From Planctomycetota bacterium (GTDB lineage Bacteria > Planctomycetota > Planctomycetia > Planctomycetales > Planctomycetaceae), in NCBI GenBank assembly GCA_027623235.1, contig JAQBVJ010000008.1:38353-102352 (forward strand): a DNA stretch of 64,000 bases. Direction: 5' to 3'. Position 1 is the first letter of the stretch. Each line of letters begins with the position of its first letter. The translations under genes were made by a program, and so were the position numbers. Shown one piece after another: positions 9,248-19,752 of this stretch. The notes beneath the pieces are model-generated. The model was given only the letters and a program-made list of their open reading frames with translations, was not told where the DNA came from and made no database searches.

Positions 9248-9955
9248 ATGCTCGGTACACGAACGCGATTTCCTGCGGCGTTGATTCCTGTCCTCGCACT
9301 GTCGGCGACATGCCTCACCGCGGCGCAGTCACATCCGCCGATGAGGCCGCTTCCCGCTCCCTCCGACCGGGCGATGCCCGACGGACCCGCGAGGTTCGTT
9401 GATCCGGCCCGCGGCGATGACACGTCTGACGGGAGTCGGACGCAGCCGTGGAAAACACTTTCGATTGCCGTTTCAAAGCTCACCCCTGGCGACACGCTTT
9501 ATCTGCGCGGCGGGACGTACTACGACCACGTTCGTGTAAGCGTCCGCGGCACTCGCCCGAAGCCGATCACAATTCGCAGTCTTCCCGGCGAACTGGCCAT
9601 CATCGACGGAGGACTGCGCGAGTTTTTTGAGTCTCCACAAACGTCCTGGGAACCCGTTCCGGATGGCGCACCGGGAGAGTTCCGTTCTGTCAGAACATTT
9701 CCTGAACTCGGAGGAAGTCCCGGTTCGACGAACGTGCTGGGGAATTTCGGCGACTCGATGATCCCGCTGCACGGCTACCGTTTCCTCACGGACCTCCGCA
9801 GCGACAACGAGTACCTCGATAATCTTGAAGGCGAGAAGACCGCTCAGGGGAGCGGCGTTTATTGCGGCCCCGGCGTTTATTACGACACCGAGACCGGCCG
9901 CATCCATGTCCGGCTGGCTCACACCGATCAGTCGGCACTCGGCATCCGGGTTGGT
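9248..9955 (+). CDS. Secreted parallel beta-helix protein, 3' end lost at a breakpoint
   Basis: Starts with a signal peptide (hydrophobic segment up to CLTAAQS). It is followed by a region typical of planctomycete right-handed parallel beta-helix or DUF1565-type proteins: ARFVDPARGDDTSDGSRTQP, PWKTLSIAV, PGDTLYLRGGTYYDHV, then a catalytic-domain-like ETGRIHVRLAHTDQSALGI. Around 9940-9965 the family character stops. The open frame continues to 10291, but that stretch is the exact antisense of the next gene. About 235 residues remain of a protein expected to be much longer. Such proteins are often polysaccharide lyases or surface proteins; no specific activity is claimed. Confidence 0.6.
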
Positions 9956-10744
9956 GGATTCCTCGGCAAGGCGTTCCAGCCGATGGATTTCCTCAAACTG
10001 TTCCTGTTCTTCCACCGATTTCATGTGCTCCCGGTCACCCCGTCGGCCTGCGCGGCGGCGATCGAGTGCCTCGATGCAATCCAGATCGCCGTAAACGATC
10101 AGCGTATCATTCGCCTTGATCGTGTCGTCACCGCGGGGCGTCCCGTGGAATTGCCCATCGACTGGCCGGATGCCCAGGATCAGAATCCCCTCGTCGGACA
10201 GACGCAGTTCGGCCAGCGGCTTGTCGACCAGCCAGTCACCCGGTTCCACCAGCATTTCGGAAACGGCATACCCACTGGACAGCTCCAGTAGAGACACATA
10301 ATCGCGCACATCCAGATCAGTAAAACGCTTCAGCGACCACGCGATAATGCGGTTCAGTCGTTTCTCGACCCAGCGGCTTGTCGAGCCGATCCAGAGCAGC
10401 CCGAGACCGGCACACAGCATCGCGACGAGCGTGGCACGCTGCTGCCAGCTGGCTTCGGTCGTGCTGGAAAAGGACACCATGATCGTCGCGACAACTGTCG
10501 CCACACCGATGTTTCCCAGCAGCATCAGCAGCATGATGATCTGCCGCCGGACGGGATGATTGACCGTGTTTTCGGCTTCCCTGGTTGTATAGCCGACGCC
10601 GGTGAAGGCCGACCTTGCCTGGAATTTTTCCGCCTCACGCGACATCCCCGTAAACGTCAGCGCCATGGCTGCGACCCGCGTAATCAGCAACGACAGCGTC
10701 AGCGCCACCAGTAACGACAGAACTCCGAGCACAGAAACACTCAT
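9955..10744 (-). CDS. Membrane protein with C-terminal TrkA_C (RCK_C) domain, 3' end uncertain
   Basis: ATG 10744 with GGAAAGG immediately upstream. Three hydrophobic segments (about residues 4-28, 68-92 and 104-120) precede a TrkA_C domain (about 150-225) containing LVEPGDWLVDKPLAELRLSDEG and NDTLIVYGDL. A charged tail (GDREHMKSVEEQEQFEEIHR) follows, typical of the end of such proteins. The expected stop is missing: the frame runs on to 9473 as the antisense of the beta-helix gene. TrkA_C domains sense small ligands in K+ and other ion transporters. The symporter gene lies directly upstream on the same strand. Confidence 0.65.
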
Positions 10745-10832
10745 CCTTTCCAGTTTCAGATTCCGTCACAGACGCAGGCGTGAACGATTCCGCCGTGTGT
10801 GCAGTCCGTGCCGGACCATATTCCAGCAATTC

Positions 10833-12161
10833 TTAATCCAGTAATTCTTCCCGCACTTGCGCCGCAATCTGTTGACCATTGCGATCGCACAGGCTGACTC
10901 CGATCGCCACGAGCCCGGACACGATGAAGGCTGGTGGCAGCTCGGATAATGCGGCGAAGCTGTCTCCGACAACGGGCAGTTGCGGTGCAACGAATTTGAA
11001 GAACGGCACGCTGGCGAATCCCGACAGCATCGCGGCCAGAGCCCCGCGAGCAGTCAGTCGCGGCCAGAACAGCGACAGGATCATCGTCGGACAGAACGTC
11101 GCAGAAATTCCCGACCAGCCGAAAATCGCAAACCAGAAGACCGTTCGCCCCGGCACCAGAGCGGCTACAGCGAAGGCAATTCCCAGCGCGACCGCCGCCA
11201 GCAGGAAAGTCACCGTCCGACTGCGGCCAAGCAGTTGCTCATCGGACATGTCCGGATGGCGAACTTTCTGAAAGTAGTCGCGGACGAACGCACTCGATGC
11301 CAGCACGAGCAACGAATCGACGGTCGACATGATCGCCGCCAGGACGATCGCGATGTACAGGCCGACTGCCCACTCGGGGACGACGTCCGCCACCAGCAGG
11401 GGCAGGACCTTTTCGCCACCCTCGCCCAGCTGCTCCGTCATGGACTTGTCAGGCGCCATCAGCATCGCGCGGCCGGCGATGCCGATCAGGACTGCGCCGG
11501 TGGTGGCCAGCAATGTCCAGATTACGGCGACAATCGCTCCTGGCCGGATCTCATCGACTGACCGCAGTGAGAGAAACCTGACAAAGATCTGCGGCGAACC
11601 CAGGAATCCCAGCCCGATTGCCAGAAAACTAAGAATCGTCAGGACCGAAGCCCAGCTCTTGCCATCCGGTCCCCACAGCGACAGCAGTTGCGGATCCTGT
11701 TGCCGAAGCGCTGCGATCGGCGCTTCCAGACTTCCCGCTGTCCCCAGCGCAAAGAACGGCAGTGCCACCAGGCCGACGACCATCAGGCTGCCCTGAAAGA
11801 CGTCCGACCAGACCACCGCGACAAAGCCTCCGCTGACGATGTAAACCAGGACGACGGCGAAACCGACGATCGCTCCGATGTAGTAGTTCCAGCCGAGAAA
11901 CCCTTCGAACGCCGTGCCGATGGCGTCGATCTGAGCACTCACGTAAATCGTCACGAACACAACCAGAGTGAACGCGGCCACGAGTCGAATGCGATGAGTC
12001 GTGTCGCGCAGGCGGGATTCCAGGTAGTCGGGGATCGTGATCGAGTCATACCGATCGGTCAGTCGTTTGAAACGCCGGCACAGAAATATCCACGCGGCGG
12101 CCACGCCTAAGACTTCTCCCGCCACAACCCAGAAGGCCTGCACGCCAACGGCGGCCCCCAT
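10833..12161 (-). CDS. PutP-like sodium:solute symporter, N-terminus missing
   Basis: About 443 residues of an SSS-family Na+/proline-type symporter. Recognisable are GVQAFWVVAGEVLGVA, TIPDYLESR, the NYYIGAIVGF and YIVSGGFVAVVWSDVFQG core, and IMSTVDSLLVLASSAFVRD. Many membrane helices are visible. PutP normally begins with about 60-70 residues (TM1 and the GGR-like loop) before the GMGAAVG segment; here family similarity starts abruptly at about 12161. The upstream open codons to 12191 are antisense of the aminotransferase. The gene is therefore 5' truncated at a breakpoint and probably non-functional as it stands, unless the join is an assembly artefact. Confidence 0.75.
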   Translation of the reverse strand: MGAAVGVQAFWVVAGEVLGVAAAWIFLCRRFKRLTDRYDSITIPDYLESRLRDTTHRIRLVAAFTLVVFVTIYVSAQIDAIGTAFEGFLGWNYYIGAIVGFAVVLVYIVSGGFVAVVWSDVFQGSLMVVGLVALPFFALGTAGSLEAPIAALRQQDPQLLSLWGPDGKSWASVLTILSFLAIGLGFLGSPQIFVRFLSLRSVDEIRPGAIVAVIWTLLATTGAVLIGIAGRAMLMAPDKSMTEQLGEGGEKVLPLLVADVVPEWAVGLYIAIVLAAIMSTVDSLLVLASSAFVRDYFQKVRHPDMSDEQLLGRSRTVTFLLAAVALGIAFAVAALVPGRTVFWFAIFGWSGISATFCPTMILSLFWPRLTARGALAAMLSGFASVPFFKFVAPQLPVVGDSFAALSELPPAFIVSGLVAIGVSLCDRNGQQIAAQVREELLD

Positions 12162-12168
12162 CTGCTTT

Positions 12169-13077
12169 ACCGAGGGATTCCACGGTCGCACTCTGATGGC
12201 GATGTCGTTGACTTCGAAGTACGGCTACAAGGTCGGCTGCGGACCATACGCCCCCGAGGTTTACCGTCTGCCGTTTCCTAACCACTACCGGTACGGCGCT
12301 GGCTTAAGTGAGGCCGCGTTCGTCGAGCGTGAACTCTGTCGCTTTCGGGAATCGCTGACCAACACCGTCGCGGCGGAACAGGTTGCCGCCGTGCTGCTTG
12401 AGCCGGTGCAGGGAGAGGGCGGGTTCATTCCGGTTCCTCAGACCTACCTTCAGGGGCTGCGGCAGTTGTGCGACGAGCACGGCATGCTGCTCATCATGGA
12501 TGAAGTTCAGTCCGGCTTTTGTCGAACCGGGCACTGGGGGGTGTTCCAGCATTACGGTGTCGTGCCGGACATTTCGACCTGGGCGAAGGCGATGGGTGGC
12601 GGACTGCCGATCGGTGCGGTCATCGGGAAGGCCGACGTGATGGACAGCGCTCGACCGGGAACGATCGGCGGCACCTTCGGAGGCAATCCGGTGGCCTGCG
12701 CCGCCGCTCTGGCCACGATCCGCCTGATGGAAGAGTTACAACTGAATACTCGAGCCATTGAGATCGGCCGGCGAGTCACTGATCGCTTTCGGGCAATCCA
12801 GCAACGCTTTCCGGATTGGGTCGGCGACGTTCGCGGGATCGGTGCGATGGTGGCCATCGAATTAATGACGAACGGCGACCCGCATCAACCCGCGACAGAA
12901 TTGACGGGCGAAGTTCTCAAAGCGTGCGTGTCGCGTGGAGTGTTGATTCTCGGCGCCGGAATTTACGGCAACGTCATTCGCTTCCTGGCTCCACTGGTGA
13001 TCACGGATGAACTGCTCGATCGGGGCCTCGACATCATTGCGGATGAAGTCGCAAACGCCGTGACACGGCACTCGTAG
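12169..13077 (+). CDS. Class-III (omega) aminotransferase, N-terminus missing
   Basis: About 302 residues beginning at the GFHGRTLMAMSLTSK motif. Also visible are MDEVQSGFCRTG (cofactor Asp), STWAKAMGGGLPIGA (PLP-binding Lys) and GTFGGNPVACAAAL. Family members of the GabT/ornithine-transaminase type have about 120-150 more residues in front. The open frame extends back to 12037, but that stretch is antisense of the symporter. No credible start codon exists for the real reading frame. It transfers the terminal amino group of an omega-amino acid or diamine. It lies 76 bp upstream of the amidase gene and looks like the first gene of the amine/amide module. Confidence 0.8.
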   Translation, partial: TEGFHGRTLMAMSLTSKYGYKVGCGPYAPEVYRLPFPNHYRYGAGLSEAAFVERELCRFRESLTNTVAAEQVAAVLLEPVQGEGGFIPVPQTYLQGLRQLCDEHGMLLIMDEVQSGFCRTGHWGVFQHYGVVPDISTWAKAMGGGLPIGAVIGKADVMDSARPGTIGGTFGGNPVACAAALATIRLMEELQLNTRAIEIGRRVTDRFRAIQQRFPDWVGDVRGIGAMVAIELMTNGDPHQPATELTGEVLKACVSRGVLILGAGIYGNVIRFLAPLVITDELLDRGLDIIADEVANAVTRHS

Positions 13078-13153
13078 CTGACTCACGACCGTTCCGCCGT
13101 ACAGAATCACGCGTCCACAATACTGCTCAACTCCATTTTCAAAGAGATCCTCA

Positions 13154-14062
13154 ATGACACCATTCGCCATCGGCGGGATGCAACTCAACGTTTCCGGGAT
13201 GCGGGATAACCTGCCCTACATTCAGGCCAAGCTGGACTACTTCATGTACCTCTTTCCCTGGGTGCAGATGGTCGTTTTCAGCGAACTGGCTGCCTACGGT
13301 CCCAACCCTGCGAAGGCTGAACCTTTGCCTGGTCCGGCGGAACGCAAGTTTCAGGAGATGGCTGCGAAACACAGGATCTGGGTCATCAGCGGATCGCTCG
13401 TCGAGCAGGTTGAGGACAAGAGATACAACACGCTGTCAGTCATCGACCCGAGCGGCATCGTCATCAATCGTTATCGCAAGATGTTTCCGTTTCTGCCGTA
13501 CGAAGAGGGTGTCGAGTGCGGCAGCTCGTTCGTTGTCTTCGACGTCCCGGATGTGGGACGCTTCGGTGTCTCGATCTGCTACGACATGTGGTTCCCCGAA
13601 ACCACGCGAACTCTGGTCAGCATGGGTGCCGAAGTGATTCTGCACCCGACTCTGACGACCACCATCGACCGCGACGTCGAGCTGTCCATTGCCCGCGCAA
13701 ATGCCGCGACGAATCAGTGCTTCATGGTCGATATCAACGGTGCTGGCGACGGCGGCAACGGCCGCTCGATCATCTGCGGTCCCGCCGGTGACGTGCTGCA
13801 CCAGTTCGGCGCGTCGGAAGAACTCGTGCCGATGGAAATCGATCTCGATCGAGTTCGCCGGTATCGCGAAGTCGGTCTCCGTGGACTCGGCCAGCCGCTG
13901 AAGAGTTTTCGCGATTCGACCGTCGAGTTTCCTGTGTACGGACCAGGCGGCAAGGAAGTGAGTTATCTCCAGTCACTGGGGCCGCTCGCCAAACAGAGCC
14001 GCGGTTCGCGAGCCGGTCTGGATGAACGAGCCGGTCTGGATGAAGAAGCGGTCAATGTCTGA
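13154..14062 (+). CDS. Carbon-nitrogen hydrolase (nitrilase superfamily)
   Basis: 302 aa. The Glu-Lys-Cys triad is complete: Glu44 in VVFSELAAYG, Lys109 in RYRKMFPF and Cys142 in SICYDMWFPE. The superfamily hydrolyses amides, N-carbamoyl amines or nitriles. Context with an Orn/Lys/Arg-type decarboxylase and an aminotransferase makes an N-carbamoyl-amine or acyl-amine amidase plausible, for instance an AguB-like role, but this is inference. The C-terminal tail contains an exact tandem duplication (RAGLDE twice) just before the stop. The next gene starts 72 bp downstream on the same strand. Confidence 0.88.
   Translation: MTPFAIGGMQLNVSGMRDNLPYIQAKLDYFMYLFPWVQMVVFSELAAYGPNPAKAEPLPGPAERKFQEMAAKHRIWVISGSLVEQVEDKRYNTLSVIDPSGIVINRYRKMFPFLPYEEGVECGSSFVVFDVPDVGRFGVSICYDMWFPETTRTLVSMGAEVILHPTLTTTIDRDVELSIARANAATNQCFMVDINGAGDGGNGRSIICGPAGDVLHQFGASEELVPMEIDLDRVRRYREVGLRGLGQPLKSFRDSTVEFPVYGPGGKEVSYLQSLGPLAKQSRGSRAGLDERAGLDEEAVNV
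14009..14044. repeat. Perfect 18-bp tandem duplication inside the amidase gene
   Basis: CGAGCCGGTCTGGATGAA occurs twice in succession, in frame, encoding a doubled RAGLDE in the C-terminal tail, outside the catalytic core. Confidence 0.9.
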
Positions 14063-14134
14063 CCGCATGCGTGTCGCTCCTCGCGCGTTGCTGCCACTCG
14101 ACAGTAAGGATTACTCATTGCACGGATGGGATGA

Positions 14135-17014
14135 ATGAAAGAACAGGGCTACGATTATTTTGACCTCGAATCGGTGAATCCTTCCAACGTGGCGTTGTAC
14201 AACGTCACGCGGGTGCGAACGGATATCTGGCATTTCCTGAGAGATTCCGCTCGGCGTCTGCATCGACTCACCCGACCCGGCAACACAGAGTCTCAGGCCG
14301 ACGTGATGTGGCTGACGGATGCCTGTGCCGAAGTCTTCAATTTTCTGAGGCCACTGGAAGACTTCTTCGTGTTCCCTGGCCGCCCGGCGATGGAACAGGT
14401 CTGCGTCTCATTCGAACAGCGGCGCTACGATGACTTCGCCCGGCAGACGCTCCGCATGGTGCGGATGATGGCGAATGGCCTGTACCGGAAACTTGATCTG
14501 ACGGCGTCACGGCTGACGGACTACGGTGACCTGCTGAACGTTGCGAAACTGAGTGAGGAGATTCACGCCCGGATTCGACAGGAGAAACGACCCTATTTCC
14601 AGCTGCTCGTCATCGATGATGTGACGGACGTCGAAGCCAAAGACCTGCGGCGTCAGTTGCGTGATCTGAGGCGTCCAGACGACCTGTTCTTCTACGAAAT
14701 GGTCGTCGCTCGTTCGTTTGAAGACGCGCTGATGTGTGTGCTGTTGAATCCGGATATTCAAATCTGCGTGGTCCGGTACAGCTTCCCGTACCGCACGTCG
14801 AAGAAGTTCAATCTGCTCAACGAAATTCATCCGCTGACAAATCAGGATCCGGACAAAGTCGTCGCGATGATGCCCACAGAGCGATCATTGAGGCTCGGCA
14901 GCGCATTGAAGGCGCTGCGTCCGGAGCTCGATCTGTTTCTGGTCACTGATGCTCCTGTGGAAGCGATTGCCGGTGAGCCAAGCCGCGCTTTCCGTCGCGC
15001 GTTTTATCACCAGGAGAACTACCACGAGCTGCATCTCAGCATCCTGAAGGCGGTCAACGATCGCTTCGAAACACCGTTCTTCAATGCACTGAAAAAGTAC
15101 AGCCAGAAACCGACCGGCATGTTTCATGCGCTGCCGATTTCACACTCGGCAACCATCGTCAGGTCGCACTGGATTCGCGACATGGGCGAGTTCTATGGCC
15201 AGAAGATTTTTCAGGCGGAAACGTCAGCCACAACCGGCGGGCTGGATTCACTGCTGCAGCCAAACGGTTCTCTGAGAGACGCTCAGGAGCGGGCAGCGCG
15301 CGCGTTCGGTGCGCGACGAACTTACTTCGTGACCAATGGCACCTCGACCGCGAACAAGATTGTCATGCAGGCCATCAATCGGCCCGGAGACATCGTGCTG
15401 CTGGCTCACGATTGCCACAAGTCGCATCCTTATGCGGTGATTTTGTCCGGCTCGCACCCGGTGTACCTCGACGCCTATCCGCTGTCGGAGTACTCGATGT
15501 ATGGAGCCGTTCCGCTGTCTGAGATCAAGTTTCGGCTGCTGGAGCTTCGACGCGCCGGAAAGCTCGATCAGGTACGCATGCTGCTGCTGACCAACATTAC
15601 ATTCGACGGAGTCGTCTACGATCCCGTGCGGATCATGGAAGAAGTTCTCGCCATCAAGCCGGACATGATTTTTCTGTGGGACGAAGCCTGGAGTGCTTAC
15701 GCGAGGTTCTCACCGATCCTTCGACGTCGAACGGCCATGTGGTCGGCAGGTCACCTGCGGCAGCAATTCAAGAACGCCGAATACCTCGCCACCTGGAAGA
15801 AATGGCAGGCTCGGTTTGACGCTGGCGAACTGGGCGACATCGACGACGACGAAACATGGCTCACCCAACGGCTGCTGCCCAATCCCGAGCGGGCACGCGT
15901 CCGGGTCTATGCCACACAGTCGACACACAAGACGCTCACGGCGCTGCGGCAGGGTTCGATGATTCACGTCCATGATCAGGACTTTGAACATCACACTCGC
16001 AACGCGTTCAACGAAGCCTACATGACCCACACATCGACCTCGCCGAATTATCAGATCCTGGCGTCGCTGGATGTCGGTCGTCGGCAGGTCGAACTTGAGG
16101 GGCACGAGTTGGTCGCGCGCAGCATCGAACTGGCGATGATGCTCCGCGAACGCATCGACGCCGACCCGTTGATGGGTAAGTACTTCAGTGTCCTGGCTCC
16201 AAGCGACATGATTCTTGAGGAATATCGCCCGTCAGGATTGAAAGAGTACTACAGCGAGTCCGACGGTTGGGCACGCATGGACCAGGCCTGGCTGGCCGAC
16301 GAGTTTGTCCTCGATCCGACCCGAGTCAGTCTGCATGTCGGTCGAACGGGATTGGATGGCGACACCTTCAAGCAGCTGCTGATGGATCGCTTCGACATCC
16401 AGATCAACAAGACGTCACGGAATACCGTGCTGTTCATGATTCACATCGGCATGACGCGCGGCACGGTCGCCCATCTGGTCAACGTGCTGACGGAAATCGC
16501 CCGCGACCTGGATGACAAACTCGACCGTTGGAGCAAGGTGGAACTCGACGTGCATAAGCAGCAGGTCCGATCGTTGACCGAGGATCTGCCACCGCTGCCG
16601 AACTTCAGCCGCTTTCATCCGGCATTTCTCACCTCGTCCGACAGCACAACGCCGGAAGGCGATCTGCGACGGGCGTTTTTCGATGCCTACGAAGACAAGT
16701 CGTGTGAATACGTGAAGCTTGAAGACGGCTCGTTACTGAAAGCCGTCGAGTCGGATCGGGAGATCGTTTCGGCAGCGTTCATCACTCCTTATCCGCCCGG
16801 ATTTCCCGTGCTCGTACCCGGTCAGGTGATTACTCGCGAGATCGTCGGCTACCTGATGGCGCTCGATGTGAAGGAAATTCACGGATACGAGCCGACATTC
16901 GGCCTGCGTGTGTTCAGGAAGGAATTCGTCGCCACGGCCGCCGCGCCGGCCAGCGAAAAGGAGCGGCGATCCACTGACGACGATGGCGACGCTGCGATTA
17001 GTCGCTCCGCGTGA
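14135..17014 (+). CDS. Large Orn/Lys/Arg decarboxylase-family PLP enzyme
   Basis: 959 aa, about 200 longer than E. coli inducible Arg/Lys/Orn decarboxylases (about 710-755 aa). An N-terminal helical region of about 150 residues has no family I recognise. A receiver-like wing domain follows (YFQLLVIDDVTDVEAKDLRR, about 162-181), as in the decarboxylase family. The aspartate-aminotransferase-fold core has ETSATTGGLDSLLQPNGSL, TYFVTNGTSTANK, FLWDEAWSAY and the PLP lysine Lys599 in QSTHKTLTALRQGSM. The C-terminal domain contains PYPPGFPVLVPGQ. It should decarboxylate a basic amino acid to a di- or polyamine; the substrate cannot be read from sequence. It is third in the module. Confidence 0.88.
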   Translation: MKEQGYDYFDLESVNPSNVALYNVTRVRTDIWHFLRDSARRLHRLTRPGNTESQADVMWLTDACAEVFNFLRPLEDFFVFPGRPAMEQVCVSFEQRRYDDFARQTLRMVRMMANGLYRKLDLTASRLTDYGDLLNVAKLSEEIHARIRQEKRPYFQLLVIDDVTDVEAKDLRRQLRDLRRPDDLFFYEMVVARSFEDALMCVLLNPDIQICVVRYSFPYRTSKKFNLLNEIHPLTNQDPDKVVAMMPTERSLRLGSALKALRPELDLFLVTDAPVEAIAGEPSRAFRRAFYHQENYHELHLSILKAVNDRFETPFFNALKKYSQKPTGMFHALPISHSATIVRSHWIRDMGEFYGQKIFQAETSATTGGLDSLLQPNGSLRDAQERAARAFGARRTYFVTNGTSTANKIVMQAINRPGDIVLLAHDCHKSHPYAVILSGSHPVYLDAYPLSEYSMYGAVPLSEIKFRLLELRRAGKLDQVRMLLLTNITFDGVVYDPVRIMEEVLAIKPDMIFLWDEAWSAYARFSPILRRRTAMWSAGHLRQQFKNAEYLATWKKWQARFDAGELGDIDDDETWLTQRLLPNPERARVRVYATQSTHKTLTALRQGSMIHVHDQDFEHHTRNAFNEAYMTHTSTSPNYQILASLDVGRRQVELEGHELVARSIELAMMLRERIDADPLMGKYFSVLAPSDMILEEYRPSGLKEYYSESDGWARMDQAWLADEFVLDPTRVSLHVGRTGLDGDTFKQLLMDRFDIQINKTSRNTVLFMIHIGMTRGTVAHLVNVLTEIARDLDDKLDRWSKVELDVHKQQVRSLTEDLPPLPNFSRFHPAFLTSSDSTTPEGDLRRAFFDAYEDKSCEYVKLEDGSLLKAVESDREIVSAAFITPYPPGFPVLVPGQVITREIVGYLMALDVKEIHGYEPTFGLRVFRKEFVATAAAPASEKERRSTDDDGDAAISRSA

Positions 17015-17055
17015 CTTAACTTTTACAAACGAATGATCTTTACGGAGAAACGAAT

Positions 17056-18545
17056 ATGACGACCGACTCAACACCGGCGAGAACACTGCAGGGCATTCCG
17101 GACATTCGCCTGTTCTTCCACCGCAACGAAACGCCGATCTATTTCATCAGCGCCACGAACTTCAACCTGCTGGGTCTTGATGAGTGGGTGCGCATTTTTT
17201 TTACTACATCAGTTACATCGACTGCTTCGACGGTCAACACCCGAGCGTTCTCTCGCCGTCTGAGATGCCGCACCGACCCTTCACATCCATCGAGGACATC
17301 AACAACTATCTGCTCGAACACAAAGAGGTCGTCGACGAAATCCGTAGTCGGACGAAGGACGGAGTCGCCGGAAAGGCCGTGTTCCTGTTCTTTGACGAGC
17401 AGACAGAAGCCCTCTGCGAGCAACTTGGACTCGAAGTCTGTTTTCCGAAAGCCAGTCTGCGGCAGGAAATCGACAACAAGATCATGACGACGCGGATCGG
17501 CGATCGAGCTGGTATCGACAGTGTTCCGAACGTCCTGGCGAACCTGAAGTCTTATCAGCAGATGCGTGAGCTCACCGGGAAACTGGGTGAGGATGTCGTC
17601 ATTCAAACGGCGTACGGAGATTCGGGACACACCACATTCTTCATTTCCAGTGAAGCTGACTGGAACAAGCACGCCGACGAAATCATCGCGGATCCCGAAG
17701 TGAAGATCATGAAGCGGATCCGCTGCCGGGGGGCCGCTCAGGAAGCCTGCGTGACCAGGCACGGCACGATCGTCGGGCCGTTGATGACGGAACTGGTCGG
17801 GTTCAAGGAACTGACTCCGTACCGTGGAGGCTGGTGCGGCAATGAAGTGCTGGCCGAAGCGTTCTCGCAGGACGTCCGTAACAAAGCCTGCGACATGACG
17901 TTCCGCTTTGGTGAAGAACTCCGAAAGATGGGTTATCGCGGTTACTTCGAGCTGGACTTCCTGCGTGATCTGGATACGGACGAGCTGTACCTCGGCGAAG
18001 TGAATCCGCGAGTCACCGGTGCCAGCGCGATGACCAATCTGGCAGCGTTCGCGCATGCCGACGCTCCGCTGTTTCTGTTCCACCTGCTGGAATGGGCCGG
18101 CGTCGATTTTGAGCTGGATGTCGAAGACCTGAATCGTCGCTGGTCCGATCCTCACAATATCGACAGTTGGGGTCAGCTCGTCATTAAACACACCGGCGAT
18201 TCCGTCGAGCTGATTACCTCAGCGCCGATGACGGGCATCTGGCGTCTGCACGACGACGGCAGTGTCGAATACGTGCGCATGCAGACGCACCGCCGAACCG
18301 TTGAATCGGAGAATCAAGCGTTCTTCCTGCGAATCTCCAAGCCCGGCGACTACAAGTACGAAGGTGCCGATCTTGGGATTCTGATTACTCCGGGTCGTCT
18401 GATGACCGAAGACTTCGAACTCAACGACCGGGCTCGCGCCTGGACGAACGGAATCCTTTCGCAGTTCGTTTCACGTCCCATTGAGCCGGCCGAAGTGGAA
18501 GTGTCTGCTCAGGTTGCGGAAGTCGGAAGCTTCAAAATGATGTAG
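17056..18545 (+). CDS. ATP-grasp ligase (annotated 'biotin carboxylase'-like), frameshifted
   Basis: The N-terminus starts at ATG 17056 behind GGAGAAA and reads NFNLLGLDEWVR in frame 1. Family-like sequence then resumes in another frame as YYISYIDCFDGQHP and continues to 18545. The switch occurs at CGCA followed by eight T (17194-17201). Joined, the protein is about 495 aa. ATP-grasp features are TAYGDSGHTTFFI, KRIRCRGAAQEACVTRHG, YFELDFL and LYLGEVNPRVTGAS (metal-binding Glu/Asn). The family joins a carboxylate to an amine or thiol through an acyl phosphate. It follows the decarboxylase by 41 bp. It is either a sequencing error in the homopolymer, a pseudogene, or slippage. Confidence 0.82.
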
Positions 18546-18602
18546 ATTGGACAGACCGCTCCCCATGTTTCTTTATCACGCCGGACACGATCTGTATCGC
18601 GA

Positions 18603-19571
18603 ATGGAAACACTGTTTCAAGCGATCTCTGAACTGCAGCCGGGTGACAAGTGGCGCCGCTTGTTCGAAAAACTGTGGCCCGCTTATCACAAATGGTTTCT
18701 GAAGGAGGGTGACAAGGCCCGACCGAAGTTTCTGACGTGTGAGCGTGCGCTGAAGTCGTACATGCCGGAACTGATGCCAACGTACGAACGCCTGCTGGAG
18801 CTTGCCGGCGGCAGTGATCAGGCCGCTCGGTTTCTGAGCCTCTACAACCCGACGCCCTACATGTCGGGCTGCTCCCAGGCAGTCTGGACGCGTGACGAAC
18901 CGTTTCTGGTCCGCAATTACGATTACAGCGCGAAGCTGTGGGAAGCGCTGCAGTTGCACACGGCGTGGAATGGCCGTCAGGTAATCGCCACGAGCGACTG
19001 CCTGTGGGGCGTTCTGGATGGCATGAACGAAAGCGGCCTCGCGGTGTCGCTGGCGTTTGGCGGACGCAAGATCGTCGGCGATGGTTTCGGCATCCCCTTA
19101 ATTCTGCGGTACATCCTGGAATTTTGCGAAACGACTTCCGAGGCGACTGAAGTTCTCAGCCGCGTTCCCAGCCACATGGCCTACAACGTGACGTTGCTGG
19201 ATAAAGCCGGTTCTCACGCCACCGTGTTCATTTCTCCGGATCGGGATCCCATCATTTCACGTCAGGCCCTGGCGACGAATCATCAGGGTTCTGTCGAGTG
19301 GGCCGAACACGCCCGCGCGACGGCCAGCCTCGACCGCGCGCATTTTCTGTCATTGCGACTACACGACGAAGGAGAGACACGGGACCGTTTCATTTCGAGA
19401 TTCTTCGAGCCGCCGCTGTACCAGACGAAACACCACATCGGCTGGGGCACGCTCTATACGTCGATTTACGATCCAGCCTCGGGGCAGGTGGTCTGCCGCT
19501 GGCCTGCGTATTCGCTGGAGCAAGGAATGGAGGATTTCACGGAACGAGGCCTCGTCGTCCGCTTCCAATGA
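18603..19571 (+). CDS. C45-type Ntn hydrolase / acyltransferase-like protein
   Basis: 322 aa. Resembles the C45 (acyl-CoA:6-aminopenicillanate acyltransferase / acid-ceramidase-like) superfamily. The candidate nucleophile is Cys90 in PYMSGCSQAVW, followed by FLVRNYDYS and WGVLDGMNESGLAVSLAF, which form the usual core after autoproteolysis. C45 enzymes hydrolyse or exchange amide bonds, fitting a module that also has a ligase and a decarboxylase. The start at 18603 has no strong ribosome-binding site; an ATG at 18565 is in another frame. The last gene of the module, 57 bp after the ATP-grasp stop. Confidence 0.78.
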   Translation: METLFQAISELQPGDKWRRLFEKLWPAYHKWFLKEGDKARPKFLTCERALKSYMPELMPTYERLLELAGGSDQAARFLSLYNPTPYMSGCSQAVWTRDEPFLVRNYDYSAKLWEALQLHTAWNGRQVIATSDCLWGVLDGMNESGLAVSLAFGGRKIVGDGFGIPLILRYILEFCETTSEATEVLSRVPSHMAYNVTLLDKAGSHATVFISPDRDPIISRQALATNHQGSVEWAEHARATASLDRAHFLSLRLHDEGETRDRFISRFFEPPLYQTKHHIGWGTLYTSIYDPASGQVVCRWPAYSLEQGMEDFTERGLVVRFQ

Positions 19572-19675: not shown

Positions 19676-19695
19676 CCCCTGGCTCACGCCAGGGG
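19676..19695. repeat. Perfect hairpin downstream of the C45 gene
   Basis: CCCCTGGC-TCAC-GCCAGGGG, an 8-bp perfect stem with a 4-nt loop, in the convergent gap 19572-19752. Two related CGCCACTTCGCGGCT-like segments flank it (about 19637-19655 and 19704-19722). It may terminate transcription from both sides or belong to a dispersed repeat family. Confidence 0.6.
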
Positions 19696-19752
19696 CTACG
19701 TGCTGCCGCCGCTTCGCGGCTGAAACTCCGGAAATCAATTCATTCCCAGTTC

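Follow-up and report, generated by a model that had tools for sequence, protein, structure and literature searches.

A linked decarboxylase, amidase, ATP-grasp and C45 gene module in at least five bacterial phyla, with a tentative route to GABA

Introduction

In lysine catabolism through DavB, DavA, DavT and DavD, a nitrilase-family amidase is followed by GabT-like and GabD-like enzymes, and in butirosin formation the ATP-grasp ligase BtrJ is paired with BtrK, a pyridoxal 5'-phosphate (PLP)-dependent decarboxylase that turns a bound glutamyl group into an aminobutyryl group. The subject of this study is a block of five genes encoding a class-III aminotransferase, a nitrilase-superfamily amidase, a giant PLP decarboxylase, an ATP-grasp protein and a C45-family protein, located in a 64,000-nucleotide stretch of a planctomycete genome (the window; positions 38353-102352 of contig C153 in genome G000, an assembly of 7.4 Mb in 253 contigs). 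These genes constitute one linked, co-inherited module, which may convert a gamma-glutamyl amide to gamma-aminobutyrate (GABA).

The module resembles several described systems in part. It shares a nitrilase-family amidase and GabT- and GabD-like enzymes with the davBATD route, but has a PLP decarboxylase in the place of the lysine monooxygenase, with ATP-grasp and C45 proteins added. With the E. coli Puu pathway it has in common an ATP-dependent ligase, a role for a hydrolase of the glutamyl-amide type, an aldehyde dehydrogenase, a GABA transaminase and a PuuR-like regulator; it differs in that the ligase has an ATP-grasp rather than a glutamine-synthetase fold, a C45 protein stands in for PuuD, the module also includes a decarboxylase and a nitrilase, and the regulator scores below the PuuR cut-off. 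Unlike the BtrJ/BtrK pair, the module has no visible carrier protein, its decarboxylase belongs to another family, and its neighbours are catabolic; the passage of PMC11405602 that concerns the btr genes only names them for the aminohydroxybutyrate moiety.

The decarboxylase itself is like Rv2531c, a mycobacterial 'probable amino acid decarboxylase' of solved structure (PDB 9N0N, 9N0O and 9N0P), in its N-terminal region and in an NKTS motif, and differs from it at Arg762. PMC12910592 gives 9N0O as Rv2531c and states that the activity of the protein was left unclarified by the cryoEM study.

Results

The block consists of five coding regions on the plus strand of the window, separated in gene order by gaps of 76, 72, 41 and 57 nt. 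The first (12169..13077) is a 5'-truncated fragment of a GABA-transaminase-like class-III aminotransferase (PF00202, 5.2e-85, profile positions 117-401 of 403). It is followed by the nitrilase-superfamily amidase with its Glu44-Lys109-Cys142 triad (13154..14062; PF00795, 2.8e-33), and by the 959-aa PLP decarboxylase of the Rv2531c type (14135..17014; PF01276, 1.9e-75), with PLP lysine Lys599 and Asn758, Arg762 and Asn763 in its pocket motif. The fourth gene (17056..18545) encodes the ATP-grasp protein, matched by the NCBIfam 'biotin carboxylase' model PRK06524, and its frame is broken near the 5' end, leaving a main open frame at 17184-18545. The last (18603..19571) encodes a C45-family N-terminal nucleophile (Ntn) hydrolase or acyltransferase with nucleophile Cys90 (NF040521, 169.7 bits). 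An earlier description of the window, made from its letters alone and referred to here as the sequence-only reading, had proposed five co-directional genes with short gaps, and the open reading frame (ORF) coordinates place all five where it had put them. Four of its five family assignments are supported by Pfam or NCBIfam; the aminotransferase is only a fragment, and the ATP-grasp gene is not a single open frame.

Relatives of the decarboxylase were sought by a profile scan of genome contigs with a 19-row alignment; 579 were confirmed, and the best 80 of them were taken as loci. Among these 80, the amidase is present in 70, the ATP-grasp protein in 73, the C45 protein in 68 and a close homologue of the window aminotransferase in 33; amidase, decarboxylase, ATP-grasp and C45 genes occur together in 63. 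All three partners of the decarboxylase lie no more than 6 kb from it in 52 of the 61 loci that have at least 6 kb of sequence on each side. The scan reached Planctomycetota, Gemmatimonadetes, Sumerlaeota, Alpha- and Gammaproteobacteria and Bacteroidota, and the side-by-side gene block spans at least five phyla. All four genes are also carried by a betaproteobacterial plasmid from Cupriavidus (locus L096). In the Bacteroidota loci the C45 gene lies apart from the others, yet it is present in the three genomes searched. No relative was confirmed on viral contigs, where two pattern matches arose and neither held.

The amidase, ATP-grasp or C45 gene is missing from 17 of the 80 loci, and the genomes of nine of these 17 were searched. 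Both ATP-grasp and C45 genes were found genome-wide in seven of the nine, partly at other places: new places for both came to light with L009, L014, L063 and L084 and a new place for C45 with L070 and L081, while L015 already has both within its locus. Neither gene was found on searching the genomes of L042 and L082.

Co-inheritance was followed across 294 genomes of the phylum. The amidase occurs in 15 of them and the ATP-grasp protein in the identical 15 (hypergeometric probability 1.8e-25, a figure that ignores relatedness, five of the 15 genomes being of one family). The decarboxylase occurs in 16, namely those 15 and G241 (46% identical), and the C45 protein also in 16, namely 14 of the 15 (all but G156) together with G055 and G074. 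These occurrences are spread over 10 families. In every one of the 15 amidase-bearing genomes, the module genes found span 4984-6427 bp. Near the window the module is rare, the decarboxylase being present in only 3 of 397 genomes of the same class. Linkage in the 80 loci and co-inheritance across the 294 genomes rule out that the genes are chance neighbours. Conservation of the genes as a unit across phyla, which the sequence-only reading had named as support for a single pathway, is what both surveys found; the contrary outcome that it had named, homologues scattered without linkage, was not borne out.

The decarboxylase passes PF01276 with 254.6 bits (cut-off 27), and Lys599 is present in all 108 alignment rows. 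Of the solved structures, 9n0n and 9n0o are the closest to it (E ~2e-241; 2.1e-241 for 9n0n). The alignment with the 947-aa Rv2531c protein covers residues 20-935 and takes in the extra N-terminal region, which is not peculiar to the present gene.

In the substrate pocket, the VEKTG motif of lysine/arginine-type enzymes reads NKTSRN in the module decarboxylase. The glutamate of VEKTG, which binds the distal amine, also stands at this position in those lysine and arginine decarboxylases of the PDB that were aligned. Among 97 relatives outside the AspT-linked clade described below, Asn758 and Asn763 are each present in all 97 and Arg762 in 96, with proline in the remaining one. The lysine/arginine-type paralogues have Glu, Leu and Tyr at the three positions, as read from six overlapping rows that represent only three genes. 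The best scores against the NCBIfam lysine, arginine and ornithine decarboxylase models are 207.5 against a cut-off of 968 and 168 against one of 1167. With scores so far below the cut-offs, and with the change of Glu to Asn, a canonical lysine, arginine or ornithine decarboxylase function is rejected.

A group of stand-alone decarboxylase relatives adjoins aspT antiporter genes in five loci (L094, L095, L113, L116 and L117), as in the AspD/AspT acid-resistance islands. An aspD gene is annotated in two of these, L113 and L116, and L113 has an HdeA/HdeB chaperone gene as well. These five enzymes have the same residues at Asn758, Arg762 and Asn763 (5/5); they differ from the module enzymes in grouping as a separate clade (support 0.999) and in having no ATP-grasp or C45 gene annotated in their stretches. 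This arrangement suggests that Rhizobiaceae and Rhodobacter have a second acid-resistance pair of decarboxylase and antiporter. Given the asparagine in place of glutamate in the pocket motif and the AspT-linked sister clade, the module decarboxylase is read here as probably acting on an amino acid that is acidic or neutral, not dibasic.

The Glu44-Lys109-Cys142 triad of the amidase is kept in 20 of 20 aligned rows. Its best NCBIfam match is N-carbamoylputrescine amidase (TIGR03381), at 77 bits against a cut-off of 410.25. It was neither found nor annotated in gammaproteobacterial L015, L018 and L034 or in Rhizobium L093 and L114. In the three of these loci that were examined for it, an amidase-signature protein is present, identified by Pfam in L034 and L093 and annotated in L114, which suggests that it may stand in for the nitrilase type.

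No Pfam family matches the ATP-grasp protein at E 0.001, and the predicted structure of the L029 homologue has the ATP-grasp fold, for which structural matches do not separate carboxylases from amide ligases. Its open part just passes PRK06524 (684.9 bits, cut-off 684). The glutamate of the ENxRxxxEH motif, presumably the catalytic one in biotin carboxylase and present in the aligned pyruvate carboxylase, is Ala in 25 and Cys in two of 27 ATP-grasp rows, and with this residue replaced in all 27 a biotin carboxylase function is rejected. No biotin carrier or carboxyltransferase gene is annotated in the stretches seen of L089, L093, L114 and L115. The C45 protein has the isopenicillin N acyltransferase type of fold, passes NF040521 (cut-off 85) and retains Cys90 in 22 of 22 rows.

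Further genes accompany the module. In planctomycete L159, L162 and L163 the order, in one direction, is aldehyde dehydrogenase (recognized by eye), aminotransferase, amidase, decarboxylase, ATP-grasp and C45. In L158 all of these are visible except the ATP-grasp gene, the stretch for which is present and masked by a longer ORF in the choice of frames; L157 is without the aldehyde dehydrogenase, and L160 without both it and the aminotransferase. The close relative L167 has the aminotransferase, amidase, decarboxylase, ATP-grasp and C45 genes in that order, plus a divergent XRE-cupin gene and an aldehyde dehydrogenase identified by Pfam. The linked aminotransferases of L071 (548.1) and L015 (552.1) pass the GABA transaminase model TIGR00700 (cut-off 506.65), below which the window fragment falls (348.5), and the aldehyde dehydrogenase of L015 (710.8) passes the succinate-semialdehyde dehydrogenase model TIGR01780 (cut-off 646.35). 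With these partners and a PuuR-like regulator, the GABA shunt is the most likely end of the module.

Among 88 loci, a TAXI-TRAP subunit occurs in 14, a fused permease in 19, the XRE-cupin family in 18 and an FMN glutamate synthase in seven, the last also in L089. ABC systems follow the module in L089, L093 and L114, and an SDF symporter in L096. Glutamate dehydrogenase genes accompany it in L093, L115 and L091. By eye, MttB-like methyltransferase genes were seen in the module stretches of L015, L018, L034, L059 and L088; L059 and L088 have a dimethylglycine-dehydrogenase-like gene, and L088 also has a gamma-glutamyltranspeptidase (Pfam). On rhizobial plasmids (L114, L093, L115 and L091) the decarboxylase occurs with the ATP-grasp gene, and in L114, L093 and L091 with C45 too. 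The L114 module directly adjoins nifHDKEN, and in L093 and L115 the module is near a Nif11-type radical-SAM cluster for a ribosomally synthesized and post-translationally modified peptide.

The copy in the window is damaged in two genes. The aminotransferase fragment covers only residues 135-430 of the 433-aa L167 homologue (68% identity), the first ~134 residues being gone, and no comparable match to the missing part was found elsewhere in the assembly, where the next best reaches 34%. Judged from the ORFs and the partial Pfam matches, two genes are cut at the junction (12150..12191): the bases before ~12165 belong to a minus-strand sodium:solute symporter gene (10833-12191) whose own N-terminus is gone (Pfam profile positions 33-406 of 406). 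The G+C content is unchanged across the junction. In the ATP-grasp gene, the reading frame shifts between the start region (17056) and the main part, with the break beside a run of T. The frame is open in relatives L166 and L167, whose identity across the open part is 96% and 90%, respectively. The damage may reflect either an assembly error or real decay; because two genes are affected, the window copy as assembled is probably non-functional.

Two further features of the window border the module. Upstream, the region ~9985-12165 appears foreign to its flanks, since a plus-strand ORF (9248-10291) and a minus-strand TrkA_C ORF (9473-10744) collide near 9990 and the symporter and aminotransferase genes are both cut near 12165; a rearrangement or a chimeric assembly is possible. 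Downstream, an Acido-Lenti-1 RNA (RF01687; 49.3 bits, gathering threshold 37) lies on the plus strand at 19676-19721, 104 nt beyond the C45 gene. No Rfam RNA was found at the gathering threshold in nine related loci, and the Acido-Lenti-1 RNA thus does not travel with the module there.

Discussion

The analysis shows that the genes are linked, which folds their products are predicted to have, that catalytic residues are conserved and to which family each partner belongs. From this we infer, with a probability of roughly 0.4, that the module serves to degrade a compound of the glutamine type (a gamma-glutamyl amide), first to GABA and from there to succinate, both the substrate and the order of the steps being our proposal. 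Besides the pocket motif and the AspT-linked relatives, the TAXI-TRAP, SDF symporter, glutamate synthase and glutamate dehydrogenase genes near the module favour this class of substrate, and the davBATD route offers an analogy for an amidase followed by GabT- and GabD-like enzymes. The conserved chemistry would comprise ATP-dependent ligation, alpha-decarboxylation, two amide steps (hydrolysis or transfer in the case of C45), transamination and aldehyde oxidation. The putative role of the ATP-grasp protein is to form an amide of glutamate, and that of the C45 hydrolase to cleave such an amide or exchange its acyl group. Loss of the alpha-carboxyl group from the gamma-glutamyl amide, in the simplest case glutamine, would be catalysed by the giant PLP enzyme and give a 4-aminobutanamide. 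This GABA amide could then be hydrolyzed to GABA by the nitrilase-type amidase, or by the amidase-signature enzyme in some relatives, and GABA transaminase and succinate-semialdehyde dehydrogenase would carry GABA to succinate, with the PuuR-like regulator controlling the pathway. The sequence-only reading had suggested an N-acyl or gamma-glutamyl amine as a possible product; the change from Glu to Asn in the motif and the linked GABA transaminases and succinate-semialdehyde dehydrogenase make GABA catabolism the likelier end.

Several observations weigh against this route. With glutamine itself as the substrate, there would be no need for an ATP-grasp or a C45 protein. L032 carries both the nitrilase-type amidase and an amidase-signature protein, which weakens the argument that one replaces the other. 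The partner genes do not all score as expected: the aldehyde dehydrogenases of L087 (634.6) and L058 (608.2) fall below the succinate-semialdehyde dehydrogenase cut-off, the L071 regulator reaches 155 against a PuuR cut-off of 211, the aminotransferase of L058 is of a different family (PRK07482), and that of L071 is accompanied by a second one (PRK07483). An arginase-family gene lies beside C45 in L032, and in L090, where the module is absent, the decarboxylase is near arginase and ornithine cyclodeaminase genes; these neighbours hint at arginine or ornithine. As for the decarboxylase family, seven of the 97 relatives are unlinked to the module in the stretch seen, Rv2531c has Ile for Arg762 although Asn and the NKTS motif are shared, and a single clade of all members not linked to AspT has a support of only 0.31.

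In a variant of this route, which we regard as doubtful, the ATP-grasp protein would mount glutamate on an amine via its gamma-carboxyl group, the decarboxylase would act on the tethered glutamate, and the amidase and C45 protein would release GABA and the amine. The protect-decarboxylate-deprotect logic put forward in the sequence-only reading may still hold.

The main rival, comparably uncertain, is a diamine route of the Puu kind. Here ornithine, arginine or citrulline would be decarboxylated to putrescine or N-carbamoylputrescine, which the ATP-grasp protein would gamma-glutamylate as PuuA does; an aminotransferase and a dehydrogenase would oxidize the product, and C45 would remove the glutamyl group as PuuD does, again yielding GABA. 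The PuuR-like regulator and the GABA transaminase and succinate-semialdehyde dehydrogenase partners suit this scheme, as do the second aminotransferase of L071 and the arginase-family neighbours in L032 and L090, and N-carbamoylputrescine amidase is the best NCBIfam match of the amidase, albeit far below the cut-off. The aligned pocket motif, with Asn for Glu, argues in the other direction, as does the presence of only one aminotransferase in the planctomycete clusters; furthermore, no agmatine deiminase was recognized by eye in the loci read, no model search having been made for one. The earlier suggestion that the decarboxylase makes diamines is likewise weakened by Asn in 97/97 and 5/5 relatives and by the GABA transaminase and succinate-semialdehyde dehydrogenase partners.

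It is less likely still that the module is biosynthetic, with the ATP-grasp and C45 proteins building and finishing a gamma-aminobutyryl or N-acyl conjugate, such as an osmolyte or a natural product, in the manner of the butirosin side chain. The pairing of an ATP-grasp protein with a PLP decarboxylase does resemble BtrJ/BtrK, and C45 proteins can by their fold be acyltransferases, but GABA transaminase, succinate-semialdehyde dehydrogenase and uptake systems are catabolic partners, and no carrier-protein gene was recognized by eye in the gaps of 41-76 nt between the genes. An accessory role in the degradation of ectoine, with diaminobutyrate or its acetylated form as substrate, is highly improbable: in Halomonas-type loci the four genes do lie within an ectoine-catabolic region, between DoeA/DoeB/AsnC-type and aldehyde dehydrogenase/aminotransferase genes (the doeC/doeD position) that were identified by eye, the DoeA- and DoeB-type families each occur in eight of the 88 loci, and one stand-alone decarboxylase relative is near annotated eutB/eutC, but both families are confined to Halomonas-type loci, with none in the planctomycete stretches read or beside the window genes, and a dibasic substrate does not fit the look of the pocket motif.

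Each family taken singly is known, as is the GABA shunt; the gene combination and the role of the decarboxylase were not found in the open-licence PMC literature. The sequence-only reading had placed no named pathway, and no paper naming this gene set was found there either, on multi-phrase queries that make this weak evidence. Among the titles and abstracts listed for glutamine decarboxylase and 4-aminobutanamide, none concerned the pathway of the module. Existing annotations appear to mislead. Relatives of the ATP-grasp protein are numerous (6882 of 7999 candidates at E ≤0.001), and the functional names among the 120 listed are 'biotin carboxylase' or similar, which is probably wrong; the ornithine or arginine decarboxylase names on the listed relatives of the decarboxylase are doubtful.

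A module that spans five phyla, is co-inherited within one of them and for which no named pathway was found presents a well-posed target, and one that bears on the Rv2531c family. If the amide-tethered route from glutamate to GABA is true, it would provide the first function for this family of decarboxylases, including the mycobacterial enzyme of solved structure.

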